Assembly: GCA_024643545.1 (NCBI GenBank)
Contig: JAHEMR010000004.1
Location: 186,001-250,000, forward strand
DNA from: Crocinitomicaceae bacterium
Lineage (GTDB): Bacteria; Bacteroidota; Bacteroidia; Flavobacteriales_D; Crocinitomicaceae
Direction of reading: 5' to 3'
Length of the DNA: 64,000 nt
Part shown: piece after piece, positions 27,453 through 46,064 of the stretch
Layout: each line of letters starts with the position of its first letter
Numbering within the stretch: position 1 is the first letter of the stretch
Notes under the pieces: generated by a model
The model's database searches: none
Told to the model about the DNA's origin: nothing
Seen by the model: only the letters and a program-made list of their open reading frames with translations
Translations under genes and position numbers: made by a program

Positions 27453-27470
27453 TTTCTTGTGCTTATAAAT

Positions 27471-27534
27471 TAATGTGCTAATGTGCGAATTAACTAATGT
27501 GCTAATGTGCGAATTAACTAGTGTGCGAATTCGC
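27471..27534 (+). repeat. 8-bp-phased array (TAATGTGC family), 8 units
   Basis: Direct reading: TAATGTGC TAATGTGC GAATTAAC TAATGTGC TAATGTGC GAATTAAC TAGTGTGC GAATTCGC. Confidence 0.95.
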
Positions 27535-28127: not shown

Positions 28128-30323
28128 ATGAAATTTTACTTATTAATGATGATCCTTTTCGGGATTTCATCCATTTCAACAGCACAAATAAAGGGTGTTG
28201 TATTGCGGCAAGACTCTACAAAAAATACACCCATTGAAAATGCCAAAATTCGTCTTTCTCATTCGAATCAAGGGGTGTTTTCCAATAAGGAAGGTCAATT
28301 TGAAATCGTACTTCCTAAACAACTTCCAGATACGCTCATCATTAGTGCGATGGGCTACCTGTCGGACTCAATAATCGTGACAAAAAATGATCGCTTCATA
28401 GCCCTTACCATCTTATTGTTTCCTATTTCAACTAAAACAGAGATTGTATATCAAATGAGGAAAAATTCCCATCAAATATCCAAAATGAAAACACTCCACG
28501 TGGAAGAAATTGGTTCAGGTGAATTAAGGAAAGCTGCTTGTTGCAACTTATCAGAGTCTTTTGAAACGAATGCATCTGTAGATGTGAATATTACGGATGC
28601 CGTTTCTGGTGCGAAGAAAATACAAATGATGGGACTTGATGGTGTGTATACGCAAATCCAGATGGAAAATATTCCTTATTTGCGAGGACTCGAAAGCTCC
28701 TTTGGGCTTCAATCCATACCGGGAACGTGGATTGAATCCATTCAAATCACTAAAGGCACGGGAAACGTGGTGAATGGATACGAATCCATGGCAGGATTGG
28801 TGAATTTAGAAATAAAGAAACCGAATGAGATGGAGAAATTCTACTTCAATGCTTACCAAAATCGTTTTGGTCGATCTGAAATCAATGTCAATGGTGGTAG
28901 AAAAATCAATCAAAAATGGAGTACAGGAATTTTAGGACATGCTTCCTCTATGTTTGGAAACATCGATCACAATATGGATGGATTCCGTGATATTCCAATG
29001 GGAGATAATCTCGCTATCATGAATCGCTGGGCTTTTCAAGGAAAGAAAATGGAAGCACAATTTGGTGTGAATGCTTATCAAGACAGAAAATTAGGTGGGC
29101 AAAACACGTATTTCCGAGATAGTCCAGTTGGATATGGTGTGAGTATGAACGCGCGTCACGTAGACCTATACGCAAAAACAGGATTCTTCAGCAAAAAGCC
29201 ACTTAGGTCCTTCGGTGTTGTGTACAACCTAAAATTCCAAGAAATGAGCGGTATATTCGGAAATCGTGCATTCGAAGGAAAAGAAAAACGAGCCTATGTG
29301 AATGCGATTTACGATGACATTCTTGGAACAAGCGACCATAAGATCAAGTTGGGGGCAAGTTTTGTCGGATTGATGATTGAACAAAAAGCCGATCAACTAC
29401 AACAGGTTCGAACGGAAATAGTTCCTGGGATTTTTGGGGAATATAGTTACACGGGCTCTCGTTTAAGCGCAGTTTTGGGAGCGCGCTATGACCAACACCT
29501 CACTTATGGCGGGCAATTCTCGCCAAGGATTCATGCGAAATATGCACTTACACAACGAACTGATTTACGCGTAACAGCCGGAAAAGGATGGCGCGTTCCG
29601 AATTTCATGATCGATAATGTTTCCTTGTTAGCAAATTCGAAAACTTGGATGTCACCAACTGAAATCAAACCGGAAATTTCATGGAATGCAGGCGCATCCT
29701 TGGTGAAAGATTTTACACTTTTCGAAAAAACTGGAAACCTAAGCCTAGACTTCTATCATACTCTTTTCCAAAATCAATTGATTGTCGACCGAGATGCCGC
29801 ATTGGATGCAATTGTCTTTCAAAACCTAACAAACTCATCCTACTCTAATAGTTTTCAAGTGGAATGGTCTTATGCACCAATGAAGAATTTCGACCTTCGT
29901 TTAGCTTACAAACATTTAGATGTGAAGGCATTATATGATGGCGTGATGCGTCAACAAGTCATGATTCCAAAGAACAGAGGATTCATTAATGTAGCTTACC
30001 GAACGCGAAATAAACGCTGGGAATTTGATGCTACTTGTACGGTTTACGGATCATCGCGTCTACCTGTTATTCTTCAATCGTCGGGTATTGTACAGCATGA
30101 TGAGCAAAGTCCAATTTATCCGATGGTGAACGCACAAATCACACATGTTTACAAAAAATGGAATTTTTACGTTGGTGGTGAAAATTTAGCGAACTTTAAA
30201 CAAGCGAATCCGATTATTGATGCGCTGAATCCTTTTGGTTCTCAATTCGATGCAAACCGAGTTTGGGGTCCGATTATGGGATGGAATGTGTATGCGGGTG
30301 TTCGTTATGCGATTAAGGGGTAA
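28128..30323 (+). CDS. TonB-dependent receptor with carboxypeptidase-like regulatory domain
   Basis: IKGVVLRQDSTKNTPIENAKIRLSHSNQGVFSNKEGQFEI; plug KAACCNLSESFETNASVDVNITDAVSGAKKIQMMGLDGVYTQI; barrel. Confidence 0.93.
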   Translation: MKFYLLMMILFGISSISTAQIKGVVLRQDSTKNTPIENAKIRLSHSNQGVFSNKEGQFEIVLPKQLPDTLIISAMGYLSDSIIVTKNDRFIALTILLFPISTKTEIVYQMRKNSHQISKMKTLHVEEIGSGELRKAACCNLSESFETNASVDVNITDAVSGAKKIQMMGLDGVYTQIQMENIPYLRGLESSFGLQSIPGTWIESIQITKGTGNVVNGYESMAGLVNLEIKKPNEMEKFYFNAYQNRFGRSEINVNGGRKINQKWSTGILGHASSMFGNIDHNMDGFRDIPMGDNLAIMNRWAFQGKKMEAQFGVNAYQDRKLGGQNTYFRDSPVGYGVSMNARHVDLYAKTGFFSKKPLRSFGVVYNLKFQEMSGIFGNRAFEGKEKRAYVNAIYDDILGTSDHKIKLGASFVGLMIEQKADQLQQVRTEIVPGIFGEYSYTGSRLSAVLGARYDQHLTYGGQFSPRIHAKYALTQRTDLRVTAGKGWRVPNFMIDNVSLLANSKTWMSPTEIKPEISWNAGASLVKDFTLFEKTGNLSLDFYHTLFQNQLIVDRDAALDAIVFQNLTNSSYSNSFQVEWSYAPMKNFDLRLAYKHLDVKALYDGVMRQQVMIPKNRGFINVAYRTRNKRWEFDATCTVYGSSRLPVILQSSGIVQHDEQSPIYPMVNAQITHVYKKWNFYVGGENLANFKQANPIIDALNPFGSQFDANRVWGPIMGWNVYAGVRYAIKG

Positions 30324-30376
30324 TGTGCTAGTGTACTAGTTTGTTAATGGATCAATATGCAAATGTGCTAGTCTAA
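30321..30376 (+). repeat. 8-bp-phased array, degenerate, about 7 units
   Basis: TAATGTGC TAGTGTAC TAGTTTGT TAATGGAT CAATATGC AAATGTGC TAGTCTAA; first TAA is the stop codon of the TonB receptor. Confidence 0.85.
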
Positions 30377-30732: not shown

Positions 30733-30764
30733 TAATGTGCTAATGATTTAGTAAACTAATTGTA
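30733..30764 (+). repeat. 8-bp-phased array, forward polarity, about 4 units
   Basis: TAATGTGC TAATGATT TAGTAAAC TAATTGTA directly after the TGA stop of the HMA gene. Confidence 0.8.
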
Positions 30765-30849: not shown

Positions 30850-30905
30850 CAACATTGGCAAATTAGCACTTTAGGTGATTGGTACATGAGCACATTACTA
30901 CATTA
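30850..30905 (-). repeat. 8-bp-phased array, reverse polarity, 7 units, upstream of purF
   Basis: CAACATTG GCAAATTA GCACTTTA GGTGATTG GTACATGA GCACATTA CTACATTA. Confidence 0.85.
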
Positions 30906-30937: not shown

Positions 30938-32839
30938 ATGAGTGATCCGATAAAACATGAGTGTGGAATAGCTCTTTTAAGGCTGAAAAAACCTTTGGAA
31001 TATTACCTAGAAAAGTACGGTACAGCACTGTATGGCATCAACAAGATGCACCTCCTCATGGAAAAACAACATAATCGTGGTCAAGATGGAGCTGGAATTG
31101 CGAACATTAAATTCGATATGGAACCAGGGAATCGTTATATATCGAGAACGCGTTCCATCAAAAAGAATCCAACCCAAGATATTTTTGATCAAATAAATGC
31201 GAAGTTTCAACAAATTCAACAAGAGAATCCTGCCAATTTAAAAGATGTAGATTACTTGAAGAAAAACGTTGGATTTACGGGTGAATTGTTCCTTGGTCAC
31301 TTGAGATATGGAACTTTCGGAAGAAATTCAATTGAAAGTTGTCATCCATTTTTGCGTCAAAATAACTGGATTACACGAAACCTCGTAGTCGCTGGAAACT
31401 TTAATTTGACCAACGTCGATGAGTTGTTTCAAACACTGATTAATCTTGGACAACATCCAAAAGAAAAAAGTGATACGGTAACAGTTCTAGAGAAAATTGG
31501 TCATTTCCTTGATGTAGAAAATGATGACTTATATGCTCATTATAAATCACTTGGCTATTCTAAAGATCAAATTTACGCGCGTATTGCCAAAGAGGTGAAT
31601 TTGGTTAAAATCTTAAAAAAAGCATCTGAAGTTTGGGATGGCGGATATGCTATGGCAGGCTTACTAGGACATGGTGATGCTTTTGTATTAAGAGATCCAA
31701 ACGGAATTCGTCCAGCATTTTGGTACGAGGATGATGAAATTTGTGTTGTTGCTTCGGAACGACCTGTAATTCAAACAGCCTTCAACTTAACCAGTGATCA
31801 AATTCATGAACTTCAACCCGGTCATGCACTGATTGTGCGTAAAAGCGGAGAAGTGAAAGAAGAGATGATTAATGCACCACGTGAAATTAAAAAATGCTCG
31901 TTTGAACGCATTTATTTCTCTCGCGGATCCGATACCGATATCTACAAAGAACGCAAGGCATTAGGACGATTAATCGTTGATCAAGTGCTAAAAACTGTCG
32001 ATTACGATTTTGATAATAGTGTGTTTTCTTTTATTCCTAATACCGCAGAAGTTTCCTTTTATGGATTGATCAAAGGATTGGAAGAAAATTTGAATCAACA
32101 AAAAATTCAGCAAATACAAGCGCTTGACTCTACAGCTGATTCTGAAAAAATAGAAGAGATTATCAATAGAAGAGCGCGTATTGAAAAAATCGCCATTAAA
32201 GATGCCAAGTTACGTACTTTCATCACTCAAGATGACTCACGAGACGATCTTGTTGCGCATGTATATGACATCACATACGGCAGTGTACGTCCAGGAACGG
32301 ATAACCTCATCGTAATTGACGATAGCATCGTACGTGGGACAACCTTAAAGCAAAGTATTTTACGCATTTTAGATCGTTTATCTCCGAAAAAAATCGTTGT
32401 TGTATCTTCTGCACCTCAAATCCGATACCCAGATTGTTATGGAATTGATATGGCGAAAATGGGCGATTTTATTGCGTTCGAAGCAGCCATTCAATTATTG
32501 CGTGACCGCAAAATGGACCGTGTGATCAAAGAAGTATACGAAAAATGCCTTGAGCAAGTAAACCTTCCGAAAGAACAAGTTCGAAATTTCGTAAAAGAAA
32601 TCTATGCACCTTTTAGCAACGAAGAGATTTCTGCAAAAATTGCTGAATTGTTGACACCTCCTACGATTCAGGCAAAAGTGGAAATCGTTTTTCAAACCGT
32701 AGAAAACCTTCACATTGCTTGTCCAGATCACCTTGGAGATTGGTACTTCACTGGAGATTATCCAACACCTGGCGGAAATAAAGTGGTAAACAAAGCTTTC
32801 ATCAATTGGATGGAAAAGAGGAATGAGCGAGCTTATTAG
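30938..32839 (+). CDS. purF: Amidophosphoribosyltransferase-like, class II glutamine amidotransferase (long Bacteroidota type)
   Basis: HECGIALLRLKKP, KQHNRGQDGAGIANI, LGHLRYGTFGRNSIESCHPFL, PRTase motif LIVIDDSIVRGTTLKQSI. Confidence 0.88.
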   Translation: MSDPIKHECGIALLRLKKPLEYYLEKYGTALYGINKMHLLMEKQHNRGQDGAGIANIKFDMEPGNRYISRTRSIKKNPTQDIFDQINAKFQQIQQENPANLKDVDYLKKNVGFTGELFLGHLRYGTFGRNSIESCHPFLRQNNWITRNLVVAGNFNLTNVDELFQTLINLGQHPKEKSDTVTVLEKIGHFLDVENDDLYAHYKSLGYSKDQIYARIAKEVNLVKILKKASEVWDGGYAMAGLLGHGDAFVLRDPNGIRPAFWYEDDEICVVASERPVIQTAFNLTSDQIHELQPGHALIVRKSGEVKEEMINAPREIKKCSFERIYFSRGSDTDIYKERKALGRLIVDQVLKTVDYDFDNSVFSFIPNTAEVSFYGLIKGLEENLNQQKIQQIQALDSTADSEKIEEIINRRARIEKIAIKDAKLRTFITQDDSRDDLVAHVYDITYGSVRPGTDNLIVIDDSIVRGTTLKQSILRILDRLSPKKIVVVSSAPQIRYPDCYGIDMAKMGDFIAFEAAIQLLRDRKMDRVIKEVYEKCLEQVNLPKEQVRNFVKEIYAPFSNEEISAKIAELLTPPTIQAKVEIVFQTVENLHIACPDHLGDWYFTGDYPTPGGNKVVNKAFINWMEKRNERAY

Positions 32840-33028
32840 TTTGCTAATGTGCTAGTTATCTATTGTGCTAATGTGCTAGTTATCTAATGTGCTAATGTGC
32901 TAGTTATCTAATGTGCTAGTTTGCTAATGTTCTAATGTGCTAGTGTGCTAGTTATCTAATCGGCTAGTTTGCTAGTTATCTAATGTGCTAGTTTGCTAAT
33001 GTGCTAATGTGCTAGTTTGCTAATGGTT
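32837..33028 (+). repeat. 8-bp-phased array, forward polarity, 24 consecutive units
   Basis: TAGTTTGC TAATGTGC TAGTTATC TATTGTGC TAATGTGC TAGTTATC TAATGTGC TAATGTGC TAGTTATC TAATGTGC TAGTTTGC TAATGTTC TAATGTGC TAGTGTGC TAGTTATC TAATCGGC TAGTTTGC TAGTTATC TAATGTGC TAGTTTGC TAATGTGC TAATGTGC TAGTTTGC TAATGGTT; first TAG is the purF stop codon. Confidence 0.97.
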
Positions 33029-33113
33029 CAATGATCTTTTGCGCCAAGGTGGGGATTTTAATGTTTCTTTGACGCGAGCAGAATAAATTTCAACTTCTTG
33101 CGTTCATTGTTTC

Positions 33114-33468
33114 ATGACTGATTCCAAGAACCCATTATTAAACAAATCATTTGACTTTGCGCTGTTAATTGTGTCGTTTTGTCAAGAGTTACAATCCCAA
33201 AGGAGTTTCAATTGCACATCAACTGTTAAAATCCGGAACGTCCGTTGGTGCAAATATTCGTGAAGCTCAGCACGCAGAATCTAGAGCGGATTTCATTCAT
33301 AAACTGAAAATTGCCTCCAAAGAATGCGAAGAAACGACCTATTGGCTTGAAATCTGTCAAGCAAGTTATTCCATGAATTGTGATGTACTCATTAACGAAT
33401 CGCAACAAATCGGCAAACTACTCAGTCGCATCATCTCAACAGCCAAACGGAATAAATCCCTAAACTAA
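33114..33468 (+). pseudogene. Frameshifted four-helix-bundle protein (S23/23S rRNA intervening-sequence-protein family)
   Basis: Frame from 33114 reads MTDSKNPLLNKSFDFALLIVSFCQELQSQ; another frame continues SIAHQLLKSGTSVGANIREAQHAESRADFIHKLKIASKECEETTYWLEIC. The family core is split across frames near 33198-33212. Confidence 0.85.
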
Positions 33469-33482
33469 CCAGACTCCAACTA

Positions 33483-33581
33483 GACCATTAGCAAATTAGC
33501 ACTCCGGCACGGCGGAAAGTCATTAGCACATTACACCATTAGCAAATTGGACGATTTGCACATTAGGTCATTAATACATTA
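33483..33581 (-). repeat. 8-bp-phased array, reverse polarity, two blocks, upstream of kdtA
   Basis: GACCATTA GCAAATTA GCAC then (phase break) AGTCATTA GCACATTA CACCATTA GCAAATTG GACGATTT GCACATTA GGTCATTA ATACATTA. Confidence 0.9.
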
Positions 33582-33607
33582 TCCCTATTTTTACAAAAAA
33601 AATAAAT

Positions 33608-34807
33608 TTGTCACTGATCTACTCCTTTTTTATTCAATGCTATGGCGTTTTGATTCATGTAGTTTCATGGTTCAATCCAAAGGCGAAGTCTTGGGTGGTG
33701 GGACGACAACAATGGGATGAAAAATTACGGACACAAATCCCGAAGAATCGAAAGGTGATATGGTTTCATTGTGCGTCGCTTGGGGAGTTCGACCAAGGAT
33801 TGCCATTGATGAAGTCCCTGAAGGAAGTGGATCCAAATTTATTTTTATTGGTGAGTTTCTTCTCTCCTTCTGGAATGGAACATTACCAAAAACGCGAGGC
33901 GATCGTTGATGCAGCTTGCTACCTCCCTTTGGATACACTTCAAAACGCTCGAACTTTTGTCCAAATCGTACAACCCGAAAAAGCCATATTTGTAAAGTAT
34001 GAATTCTGGCCGAATTTCCTACGAGCTTTAGATGAAATGACTATTGAAACGGTTGCTGTATCAGCTATTTTTCGTCCGACACAACTTTATTTTCGTTGGT
34101 ACGGTGCCTTTTTTAGAAGAGCATTGAAACGGATCCATCATTTTGATGTGCAAAACGAAGAAAGTGCTGAACTTTTGAAATCTATTGGCATTCAACAAAG
34201 CACTGTTTCCGGTGACATGCGTTACAAGCGAGTGGTTCAAGCAAAGGAAATGGCCATGGAGCATTCGAATGAACTTTTGGCGACCTTTACTACTGGAACG
34301 ACTACACTCATCATTGGAAGTTCATGGCAAAAAGAAGAAGGTATTGTTCGTGAGGCTCTCTCGGAGCTTGGAGCAACTAAACTGATCATAGCGCCACACG
34401 ATGTAAGTGAGCAACATATTTCATCCATTCAGACACAATTCCCAAATGCTTTGCGCTACACCCAGTTAACTTTTCCAAATGACGAAAGGAAACTATTCGA
34501 TTCACAAATTCTCATCATCGATTGCATTGGTCAATTAAGTTTGGCTTACCGCTACGCAACAATTGCTTTCATTGGTGGTGGCTTTACGGGAAATCTTCAT
34601 AATATTCTTGAACCTGCCGTTTACGGACTTCCGCTCCTGTTTGGTCCGAAACATCGAAAATTCCCAGAAGCAAAATTATTTCTTCAAAAAGGCTTTGCCT
34701 TAGAAGTAACAAATCCAAAAGATTTCTCTCAAGCCTTTAATGCATTACTTTCGAAGGTTACATCGCTTCGTCCGGAAATGGAAAAGTTTGTGCAAGCACA
34801 AGCGTGA
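33608..34807 (+). CDS. kdtA: 3-deoxy-D-manno-octulosonic acid (Kdo) transferase
   Basis: IWFHCASLGEFDQGLPLMKSL; FVKYEFWPNFL; GDMRYKRV; FIGGGFTGNLHNILEPAVYGLPLLFGPKH; TTG start. Confidence 0.94.
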   Translation: MSLIYSFFIQCYGVLIHVVSWFNPKAKSWVVGRQQWDEKLRTQIPKNRKVIWFHCASLGEFDQGLPLMKSLKEVDPNLFLLVSFFSPSGMEHYQKREAIVDAACYLPLDTLQNARTFVQIVQPEKAIFVKYEFWPNFLRALDEMTIETVAVSAIFRPTQLYFRWYGAFFRRALKRIHHFDVQNEESAELLKSIGIQQSTVSGDMRYKRVVQAKEMAMEHSNELLATFTTGTTTLIIGSSWQKEEGIVREALSELGATKLIIAPHDVSEQHISSIQTQFPNALRYTQLTFPNDERKLFDSQILIIDCIGQLSLAYRYATIAFIGGGFTGNLHNILEPAVYGLPLLFGPKHRKFPEAKLFLQKGFALEVTNPKDFSQAFNALLSKVTSLRPEMEKFVQAQA

Positions 34808-34815
34808 TTGGTTAC

Positions 34816-34863
34816 TAAAGTGCTAATGGACTAATGTGCTAATGTGCTCGTTTTCTCGTTTAC
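34816..34863 (+). repeat. 8-bp-phased array, forward polarity, about 6 units, after kdtA
   Basis: TAAAGTGC TAATGGAC TAATGTGC TAATGTGC TCGTTTTC TCGTTTAC. Confidence 0.85.
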
Positions 34864-34887
34864 AAGTTATTATATCCTTTGACGAAA

Positions 34888-34927
34888 GGTCAATAGCAAA
34901 CTTGCACATTGATTAATGAGCAAGTTA
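34888..34927 (-). repeat. 8-bp-phased array, minus-strand sense, about 5 units, starting at the stop codon of the minus-strand gene
   Basis: Reverse complement reads TAACTTGC TCATTAAT CAATGTGC AAGTTTGC TATTGACC; first TAA is the stop codon at 34927-34925. Confidence 0.7.
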
Positions 34928-35692: not shown

Positions 35693-38185
35693 TTATTTCT
35701 TTTTCAGAAAAATGCGCAAAAAGGGAAAATATCGCTCGATGCGATTTCTCCATTTACGCTTATTTTTAGATGGTTTATCAAAATACTCATTTCCGCTAGA
35801 TCCATAACCGTAGCCATAGCCATATCCGTAGCCGTAACCATATCCGTAGCCATAGCCAGCTCCATAACCATAGCCATAACCATAACCTTTCCCAGTAAGA
35901 TCTGTAGCGTTCACTAAAACGGCCATGTTAGGCATTTTCTTTTCGTGATAAAGACTTGCTGGTATACTTAACATTCTACGGTCTAAGTGTTCAGCTCTTG
36001 CAACATAAACGACAATATCTGAATATTTATGAACATGTAAAGAATCTGCAACCAAAGCTACCGGGGCAGTGTCTAGGATAACATAATCATACTGAGATTT
36101 TGCAATTTCAATTAACTCTGCCAAACGTGGTCTTAGTAATAATTCAGATGGATTCGGAGGGATATCACCGGAAATAATGTAATCTAAATTCTGATTTCCT
36201 TGATCATGAATGACGATATCATCAAACGTTAAATCTTCTTTTACGATATAATTTGTTACCCCGACAGTTTTAACAACATCCACATATCGCGCAATTTTCG
36301 GAGCACGCAAATCCAAGCCTATCACAACAACTTTCTTATCACTATGCGAAAGCGTATGCCCAATATTGATGGAAATAAATGTCTTACCCTCACCTGCAAT
36401 AGAAGAGGTTACCATAATAACTTTCGAGCCCTTTTTATCATTATCTAATAAAAAAGTTAAGTTTGTTCGAATCATTCGGAATGCTTCAGCAATATGTGTT
36501 CGCGCATTTTTTGTAGCCACAATCGTTCGTCCACTTTCATCCCCTTTAGGAACCTCTCCAATTGCTGGGATTTTAAATTTGATTAAATCGTGAAGGCCAT
36601 GAACTTTACTGTCCAATAAATATTTTAGGTAAATGATACCAAATGGCACTAAAAGTCCAATTACAACTGCAAAAATGTAGTATTTCTTACGGTTTGGCTC
36701 TGTAGGTAAACCATTGCTACTTGCCTCATAGATGATTTTTGTATTTCCAATAGAGGAAGCTGTCTTTATTTCATTTTCCTCACGTTTTTGCAACAAGAAA
36801 ATATACAATGTTTCTTTGATTTCTTGTTGTCGTTCTATATTCCTAAACTCACGTTCGTAACCAGGAACTGAAGCAATTTTATCTTTATAACGGTTATCGA
36901 CTACATTTAATGAATTCAAGGTAATTTTCAAACGAGATTTATTCGATTTCAACCCTTCATCAATGGAATGGCGTAAACCAATTAGTTGATCATCAATTTT
37001 TTGAACGGTTGGATTTTTAATACTAGAATTCTTCATTAAGCGTTGACGATCCAACAAGAGTTTATTGTACTGAGTAGTCATCGCCACGATAGAACCGTCT
37101 TCAAAGCCGAGATTCGATGGCAATAATTCCGTATAATCTTGGTGCTTCTGAAGGTATTCTTGCAGGTAATCATTCAAACTTAATTGTACAGAAGTCTGAA
37201 TAATACTCTCCTCTGTGGCACTTTGTTTGGCAACAAATTCCCCACCTTGAGTTGCTACATCAACAATATTGTGTTTTGTTTTAAATGCTTCTACGTCCTT
37301 TTCTACAGCTGATAATTCTTCAGTAATGTAGGCCATTCTGTCATTTATAAAAGCACTTGTATTTCGGGCGATTTCATTTTTATCATAAATGCTTTGAGCT
37401 TCATGCTCTGTAATGAGGGCAGAGATAATGTCATTATTTTTCTCAATTACCGGCCCGTCGTATGAAATAGAAATTAAATCTGAAAACTTATCAACGCGTT
37501 CTAAGATAATATCAGCACCCAATTTTGATGTGGCATCTTTGATTGGCTCTAGATAGACGATGTATTCATTTCCTATTGTTGATGCATTAAAATTGGTGTT
37601 TTTGACAAATGATATTAGTCCAATTTTAGTCGCTATCGGAGTGTTAAATGTATGTGAACCTAAATATGTGCTTTCATCAATGTGAAGTTCAAATCGCATT
37701 GACGAAATTACTTTTAATTGAAAACTAGCACTTTTGTCAAAAAGTAAGCTGTCATTTCTAACAGACTCTAATGTGAAAGGTGTGTTTTTGTATAACTCTG
37801 ATTTTTTAATGCCAGCATTTTGTCCAACCAATAAATACCTGCGATTTAAATTAAGTTTTCTAACAACACTATTCAGAATTGCCGGTGTTTTAAATAATGC
37901 GATTTCATTCTCTAATTTCGTGCTTTTTTCAGTTAATCCAAGGTCTTGAAATGCTGAAAGTCCTTTTAATACATCGTCTTCTTGATTCTGTATTAAAATG
38001 GTTGCTGTTGATTTATAAATTGGTGTAGAATACCTCAATAAAGTGTAGGCAACAAAAACAGAAATGAATACTCCCACAACGAACCACAACCAATAATGTA
38101 GGTAACGATCTATAAGTTCCCGTACATTTATCTTTGGCTCAGGAGCGTCTTGTTGATCCTGCTTTTGGTTATAATCCTCTTGCAT
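35693..38185 (-). CDS. wzc: Polysaccharide biosynthesis tyrosine autokinase (Wzc-like)
   Basis: Wzz domain plus BY-kinase motifs VIMVTSSIAGEGKTFISINIG, VVVIGLDLRAP, YDYVILDTAPV; Tyr-rich C-terminus. Confidence 0.93.
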   Translation of the reverse strand: MQEDYNQKQDQQDAPEPKINVRELIDRYLHYWLWFVVGVFISVFVAYTLLRYSTPIYKSTATILIQNQEDDVLKGLSAFQDLGLTEKSTKLENEIALFKTPAILNSVVRKLNLNRRYLLVGQNAGIKKSELYKNTPFTLESVRNDSLLFDKSASFQLKVISSMRFELHIDESTYLGSHTFNTPIATKIGLISFVKNTNFNASTIGNEYIVYLEPIKDATSKLGADIILERVDKFSDLISISYDGPVIEKNNDIISALITEHEAQSIYDKNEIARNTSAFINDRMAYITEELSAVEKDVEAFKTKHNIVDVATQGGEFVAKQSATEESIIQTSVQLSLNDYLQEYLQKHQDYTELLPSNLGFEDGSIVAMTTQYNKLLLDRQRLMKNSSIKNPTVQKIDDQLIGLRHSIDEGLKSNKSRLKITLNSLNVVDNRYKDKIASVPGYEREFRNIERQQEIKETLYIFLLQKREENEIKTASSIGNTKIIYEASSNGLPTEPNRKKYYIFAVVIGLLVPFGIIYLKYLLDSKVHGLHDLIKFKIPAIGEVPKGDESGRTIVATKNARTHIAEAFRMIRTNLTFLLDNDKKGSKVIMVTSSIAGEGKTFISINIGHTLSHSDKKVVVIGLDLRAPKIARYVDVVKTVGVTNYIVKEDLTFDDIVIHDQGNQNLDYIISGDIPPNPSELLLRPRLAELIEIAKSQYDYVILDTAPVALVADSLHVHKYSDIVVYVARAEHLDRRMLSIPASLYHEKKMPNMAVLVNATDLTGKGYGYGYGYGAGYGYGYGYGYGYGYGYGYGSSGNEYFDKPSKNKRKWRNRIERYFPFLRIFLKKK
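35801..35886 (-). repeat. In-frame Gly-Tyr-coding tandem repeat within wzc
   Basis: Encodes GYGYGYGYGAGYGYGYGYGYGYGYGYGYG; DNA is repeated GGNTAY hexamers with synonymous variation. Confidence 0.9.
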
Positions 38186-45984: not shown

Positions 45985-46064
45985 TAATGTGCTAATTATT
46001 CAATGTGCTAATTATTCAATGTGCTAATGTGCTAATGATTCAATGTGCTAATGTGCTAATGGTT
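45985..46064 (+). repeat. 8-bp-phased array, 10 units, 2 nt before carbamoyltransferase start codon
   Basis: TAATGTGC TAATTATT CAATGTGC TAATTATT CAATGTGC TAATGTGC TAATGATT CAATGTGC TAATGTGC TAATGGTT (plus strand; gene is on minus). Confidence 0.95.

Follow-up and report, generated by a model that had tools for sequence, protein, structure and literature searches.

The stretch of DNA analysed here (the window) spans 64,000 nucleotides of the 2.75 Mb genome of a Crocinitomicaceae bacterium. Between purF, which ends at 32839, and kdtA, which starts at about 33608, downstream of the right arm listed below, it carries a gene of the IVP/S23 family set between two arrays of short repeats. The parts of this arrangement are:

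32837-33025, + strand: left arm, a degenerate array consisting of about 23 units of 8 bp (TAATGTGC, TAGTTTGC, TAGTTATC, TAATGTTC and others)
33026-33113, + strand: spacer from the left arm to the IVP start, alignable among the IVP copies within genome G041
33114-33468, + strand: IVP/S23 four-helix-bundle gene, frameshifted (PF05635, TIGR02436)
~33478-33582, - strand: right arm, a reverse-complement array (GCACATTA, GCAAATTA and others) that ends just before the kdtA leader

The left arm begins with the stop codon of purF (TAG), which supplies bases 1-3 of its initial unit. This arm is detected by Tandem Repeats Finder (TRF) with scores of 161-272, and four positions of its unit (T1, A2, T4 and C8) are kept in 23/23 units. 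Across the window, TAATGTGCTAATGTGC is matched 30 times with up to three mismatches, against 0.64 expected. The frame 33169-33468 matches the PF05635 profile (23S_rRNA_IVP) with E=1.1e-17 and 64.6 bits against a cut-off of 33.8, so that opposing arrays do bracket an IVP-like frame between purF and kdtA, as the initial annotation of this DNA had described. No Rfam rRNA model matches in the window, and the element sits between two protein genes.

The true start of the IVP gene is the ATG at 33114, from which the frame is lost after codon 32 through a 2-nt deletion at 33209/33210, as judged against the intact genes that four sister species (G174, G085, G190 and G213) keep at the same site. The identity of the four-helix frame proposed in the initial annotation thus holds, whereas its intactness does not. 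The intact relative from G174 scores 93.6 against a cut-off of 24 when tested with PF05635 / TIGR02436 and, with dN/dS values of 0.03-0.16, the intact copies are evidently under strong purifying selection. An AlphaFold2 model of the G174 protein (pLDDT 91.6) superposes on 2rld with TM scores of 0.83-0.91, and this predicted fold equals that of the S23 structures 2rld and 2gsc. It also resembles Avd, with 4dwl and the diversity-generating retroelement particle 8ub7 among the structure matches. Avd, which shares the IVP fold, works together with a reverse transcriptase in diversity-generating retroelements. Relatives of IVP match the PHROG Avd family; against the Avd equivalog cut-off of 80, the relative at L154 scores 24 and the window's clade gives no match. 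PADLOC models of phage-defence proteins returned 0 matches, and a search of phages for relatives of Xcc0516 found none. The window's genome holds two PF05635 genes, the second of which, on contig C6, lacks arrays. A second IVP clade (MKTYLFSFEKLDVWK..., ~128 aa) recurs in the genus as a single gene (L001, L131, L136, L137, L139, L140); no arrays lie beside the six copies read, and this clade is probably a domesticated member of the family or one with a different function.

The association between IVP genes and short arrays was surveyed at 66 loci from the genus, 42 from the family and 80 from named genomes of many phyla, amongst which G068 and L234 of Brumimicrobium glaciale represent one locus. 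Arrays with a period of 6-9 within 300 bp of the gene were scored without regard to their sequence and set against the flanks of other genes at the same loci as controls. In the genus, arrays were found upstream of 44% of IVP genes and 11% of other genes, and downstream of 39% and 12%, respectively. The corresponding figures for the family are 45% against 7% upstream and 38% against 4% downstream. For the named genomes, arrays accompany 47% of IVP genes against 9% of controls in Bacteroidota (Fisher p=5e-17) and 47% against 5% in other phyla (Fisher p=2e-7), these values being based on heuristic periodicity scores and on loci that are phylogenetically related. On plasmids, a tblastn search with Xcc0516 identified IVP genes on 31, mostly from Nostocales, and plainly inverted heptamer arms are present in seven of the ten that were read. 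Arrays of 6-9 bp therefore flank IVP genes far more often than other genes in Crocinitomicaceae, in many phyla and on cyanobacterial plasmids, with about one third of the IVP loci surveyed having no clear array. The array units vary widely (TAGTGAT, GGGTGTT, AGCTAAA, GGAATGAG, GTAGGGA and many others). In addition, 80% of IVP genes are co-directional with both neighbours, compared with 60% of control genes.

The two arms of a locus are typically matched and opposed. Overall, 82 loci have inverted and 15 direct arms: a unit-profile scan gives 45 inverted to 8 direct in genus and family together, and the named set gives 37 to 7, with 9 to 0 outside Bacteroidota. When a unit profile built from one arm was used to rank all loci, the locus's own opposite arm, in inverted orientation, ranked among the top 3 of 119 at 76 loci and in the top 10% at 99. 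These two analyses supersede an orientation test based on shared 7-mers, which is too blunt for degenerate arrays (15 inverted, 11 direct and 38 with none; control 8, 9 and 263). At the sdhA-sdhB site, the units of related IVP loci differ among species, whilst the arms agree within each species, which indicates that a change in one arm is matched in the other. Unit similarity follows protein similarity between IVP loci that lack common flanking DNA (Mantel 2/500), and all IVP pairs with a protein similarity above 0.6 share a period. On these sequence comparisons, TAATGTGC belongs to one IVP clade and other clades have other units. The expectation that four-helix-bundle genes would be enriched beside such arrays is consequently borne out more widely than anticipated as regards opposing short arrays, but not as regards the TAATGTGC unit in general. 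The arms also differ in composition, upstream arrays being G-rich in 80% of cases and downstream arrays C-rich in 86%. A unit pattern of conserved core plus spacer, of the kind expected for TRAP-like binding, was considered as a general rule and was not supported.

Evidence for mobility comes from pairs of filled and empty sites on plasmids that are 85-98% identical, drawn from cyanobacterial relatives rather than the window's genus. Amongst plasmids that are ~98% identical, the trb operon is empty in Nostoc linckia, PCC 7120 beta and Tolypothrix and filled in Trichormus and Scytonema; Nostoc C052 retains a decayed remnant of the element at this site. The empty sequence AAAAAGTAATTAACAAATA becomes, when filled, AAAAAGTAAT, followed by array, IVP gene and reverse array, and then GTAATTAACAAATA. 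At this site in Nostocales plasmids GTAAT, which includes the stop codon of the upstream gene, is duplicated. The duplication at the cleanest insertion site is 4-5 bp, and the L321 site is compatible with a duplication that is not exact. Four further plasmid sites have the same filled and empty pattern (an integrase gene, cas10-cmr3, a TraM-like gene and a conserved hypothetical pair), and in each of them the insert occupies the gap from one gene's stop codon to the start of the following gene. The nrdB-nrdA site is filled in Nostoc edaphicum, where the IVP gene runs antiparallel to the nrd genes, and empty in Calothrix NIES-4105 (85% identical). One plasmid retains inverted arrays without an IVP gene. 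IVP is the only open reading frame in the comparison of filled and empty sites, which contains no transposase; no nuclease, transposase or reverse transcriptase was found as part of the element. It is thus very probable, on the sequence evidence, that whole elements of this type exist and are mobile, inserting between cistrons at the upstream stop codon, and the suggestion that the purF-kdtA feature may be related to a mobile element gains support from the plasmid sites. The window feature itself is probably a decayed copy of such an element, made up of left array, spacer, IVP gene and inverted right array.

On cyanobacterial plasmids, IVP genes also occur inside cas operons, as cas6-IVP-cas4 twice and cas10-IVP-cmr3 once (L307, L308, L309). 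In Anabaena sp. 90 (L307:1899-1960), a CTGTCAC array enters the first codons of cas4 and replaces the N-terminus found in Dolichospermum UHCC 0315A. 23S rRNA IVP genes appear among CRISPR-associated genes (PMC10910872), a listing that could arise because IVP elements sit inside cas operons as inserts. A different kind of nesting is seen on an Ignavibacteriales contig (L224:1223-1565), which was taken at first sight for an rRNA contig and is not one: its second IVP gene is split by a GIY-YIG-like ORF that has inverted ends on either side (ACCCCGTCAAAT / ATTTGACGGGGT), so that a frame in an inverted repeat is nested in an IVP element.

Within the window's genus, the purF-kdtA comparison is confounded by an inversion of kdtA and by solo arrays. 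In the region 32840-34915, kdtA is convergent to purF in the outgroups and in G176 and parallel to purF in the IVP-bearing species; this difference in orientation suggests that the IVP-kdtA block underwent an inversion between junctions that carry arrays. The purF end is empty in the close relative G182, which has neither arrays nor the TAATGTGC-matching IVP gene, and carries arrays but no IVP gene in G176, G041, G200 and G122. G041 has three IVP copies, 86-96% identical and at three sites, whose similarity ends near the arrays. Genomes rich in TAATGTGC arrays number 14 of 90 in the genus, and the matching IVP clade is present in 10 of these 14 and in none of the other 76 (p=2e-10, a value inflated by relatedness among the 14). 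The window's IVP clade was not found in the array-bearing genomes G202, G175 and G035, which indicates that arrays on their own can persist after loss of the gene or exist without it, and numerous arrays are located well away from any IVP gene. Arrays of the genus frequently abut coding sequence: 22 of the 58 that have a same-strand upstream gene start exactly at its stop codon. The window holds ten arrays of the TAATGTGC type, compared with 0-3 per window in ten shuffled windows. Those beyond the purF-kdtA element include both solo arrays and inverted pairs without an ORF, in agreement with the proposal that repeats elsewhere in the window are solo or related arms:

27458-27534, + strand: solo array with the unit of the purF-kdtA left arm and a 24-bp higher period
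30321-30368, + strand: solo array whose first bases are the TAA stop of ORF 28128-30323
30733-30748, + strand: left part of the ORF-less inverted pair that separates a 109-aa ORF from purF
30858-30905, - strand: right part of the ORF-less inverted pair upstream of purF
34814-34855, + strand: left part of an ORF-less inverted pair downstream of kdtA
34888-34915, - strand: right part of the ORF-less inverted pair downstream of kdtA
45985-46064, + strand: solo array between two minus-strand genes

The closest known counterparts are the intervening sequences (IVS) of 23S rRNA found in Leptospira, Coxiella and other bacteria, which share with the window's element type complementary ends around an S23/IVP frame (S23p ORF, PF05635) and, like IVP elements, have a sporadic, selfish-looking distribution. 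In the Coxiella rRNA IVS, variable heptamer repeats precede the S23 ORF (PMC4990558). However, the window element lies between protein genes rather than in an rRNA helix, and the ends of IVP elements are degenerate 6-9-bp arrays rather than a single stem. The IVS-like layout outside rRNA that had been proposed for this locus, with inverted arms and the ORF in the loop, is therefore confirmed; judged by sequence, the element is built like a 23S rRNA IVS yet is not classed as one, because it lies outside rRNA and lacks a transposase. IVP arrays also resemble the intergenic heptamers known from Beggiatoaceae and cyanobacteria (PMC4679880) and from Xanthomonas in period class, intergenic location and species-specific units (cyanobacterial STRR, GGGAATC in Xanthomonas and TAACTGA in Beggiatoaceae), the difference being that the present arrays form the two arms around an IVP gene in a single element. 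The TAACTGA repeats overlap stop codons (PMC4679880), and Xanthomonas campestris has 186 intergenic heptamer arrays and 70 convergent inverted pairs (PMC4692102); the same species is the source of the S23 structure Xcc0516. A term search of these two papers (PMC4679880, PMC4692102) found no mention of an IVP/S23 partner, and no earlier report of IVP genes flanked by arrays was found in the open-licence literature searched. In common with MITEs and REP/RAYT systems, IVP elements comprise short interspersed inverted units, ORF-less derivatives and full copies with a protein gene, but they have no transposase, and their arms are tandem arrays whose unit changes by locus.

The explanation that best accounts for these observations, to which we assign a probability of roughly 0.6, is a mobile intercistronic element functioning like a 23S rRNA IVS. 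In such a model the element would be transcribed along with its host operon, and the transcript would form a long stem with the IVP frame in the loop, in the manner of rRNA IVSs. For the window element, RNA folding predictions agree with this, since they pair the arms around a loop that holds the reading frame (z=-3.34), with a predicted arm duplex of -96.7 kcal/mol. The element RNA could then be excised, for which RNase III would be the likely nuclease, cutting by this enzyme being put at somewhat below even odds. Breakage of the RNA would be harmless at an intercistronic site, as at a surface loop of rRNA, since a cut there would leave every coding sequence whole. Relatives of IVP with solved structures are pentamers; IVP itself would bind the repeated units, and it is reasonably likely that it acts on its own arrays. 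It may also aid in moving or amplifying the element RNA, probably via a borrowed enzyme: since the element encodes none, some host function would have to serve.

Whether such an element acts at the RNA rather than the DNA level is evenly balanced. Amongst arm mismatches no excess of G-U over A-C was found (136 G-U against 144 A-C), so that selection for RNA pairing is not visible and room is left for a DNA-level element. On that account, the arrays would be loose terminal inverted repeats read by IVP, by a transposase or recombinase of the host, or by both, and the RNA hairpin would be incidental. The lack of wobble bias between the arms is joined in its favour by the short duplication at the clean insertion site and by the inversion of kdtA between array-bearing junctions (G000 and relatives), which is expected from recombination between inverted repeats. 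However, neither the strand skew that the arms of many clades consistently show with respect to the IVP gene nor the preference for co-directional operon positions would be expected of an ordinary DNA element, and the absence of a transposase and the free variation in arm length and unit also argue against it, making this account unlikely, if the strongest of the alternatives. A further possibility is that simple repeats expand independently in spacers through slippage, like cyanobacterial heptamers, and that IVP genes simply land beside them. Solo arrays are indeed common, and the four genomes with arrays but no IVP gene at the purF end fit this idea. Nevertheless, it is improbable given that both arms and IVP are present together in filled sites and absent from empty ones, that the arms are inverted and matched by locus, that the unit follows the IVP clade and that the matching clade is confined to array-rich genomes of the genus. 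Least probable of all is a regulatory role, in which the arrays would serve the IVP gene or flanking operon as operator, attenuator or terminator, with IVP as an autoregulator. Although the arms immediately precede and follow the gene and a stable hairpin is predicted, they come and go as part of the insertion, vary too freely in unit and length and occur in many places far from any IVP gene.

The favoured model of an IVS-like intercistronic element has consequences beyond this locus. The opposing repeats are the two ends of a widespread, apparently undescribed type of mobile element that inserts between adjacent genes in bacteria, and such ends may explain many of the puzzling 7- and 8-letter repeats of bacterial genomes. 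Common as they are, S23 four-helix-bundle proteins lack an assigned function (PMC4990558), and tandem heptamers were reported to be the most abundant intergenic tandem repeats in prokaryotes, with no clear clue as to their function (PMC6344855). A link between IVP and arrays provides the S23 protein with a candidate substrate and the repeats with a candidate maker, renders both puzzles testable and would help to explain the S23 genes within rRNA intervening sequences. More tentatively, and with the balance of odds somewhat against it, S23/IVP genes and a large share of intergenic 6-9-bp prokaryotic repeats may be the halves of one mobile class that spreads via RNA without an enzyme of its own. 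In this view IVP would recognise arrays belonging to its own clade, with solo arrays as non-autonomous satellites and rRNA IVSs as members that landed in rRNA.

Two other kinds of repeat were encountered alongside these arrays. Many TAATGTGC arrays (L128, L129, L135 and other loci of the genus) contain GC-rich palindromes of the CTCCGCCGCGGCGGAG type, which look like a separate interspersed repeat. In the window, a 6/18-bp tandem repeat at 35802-35884 lies within the gene for an 830-aa Wzc-like tyrosine kinase, where it encodes a Gly-Tyr-rich stretch near the C-terminus of the kinase.
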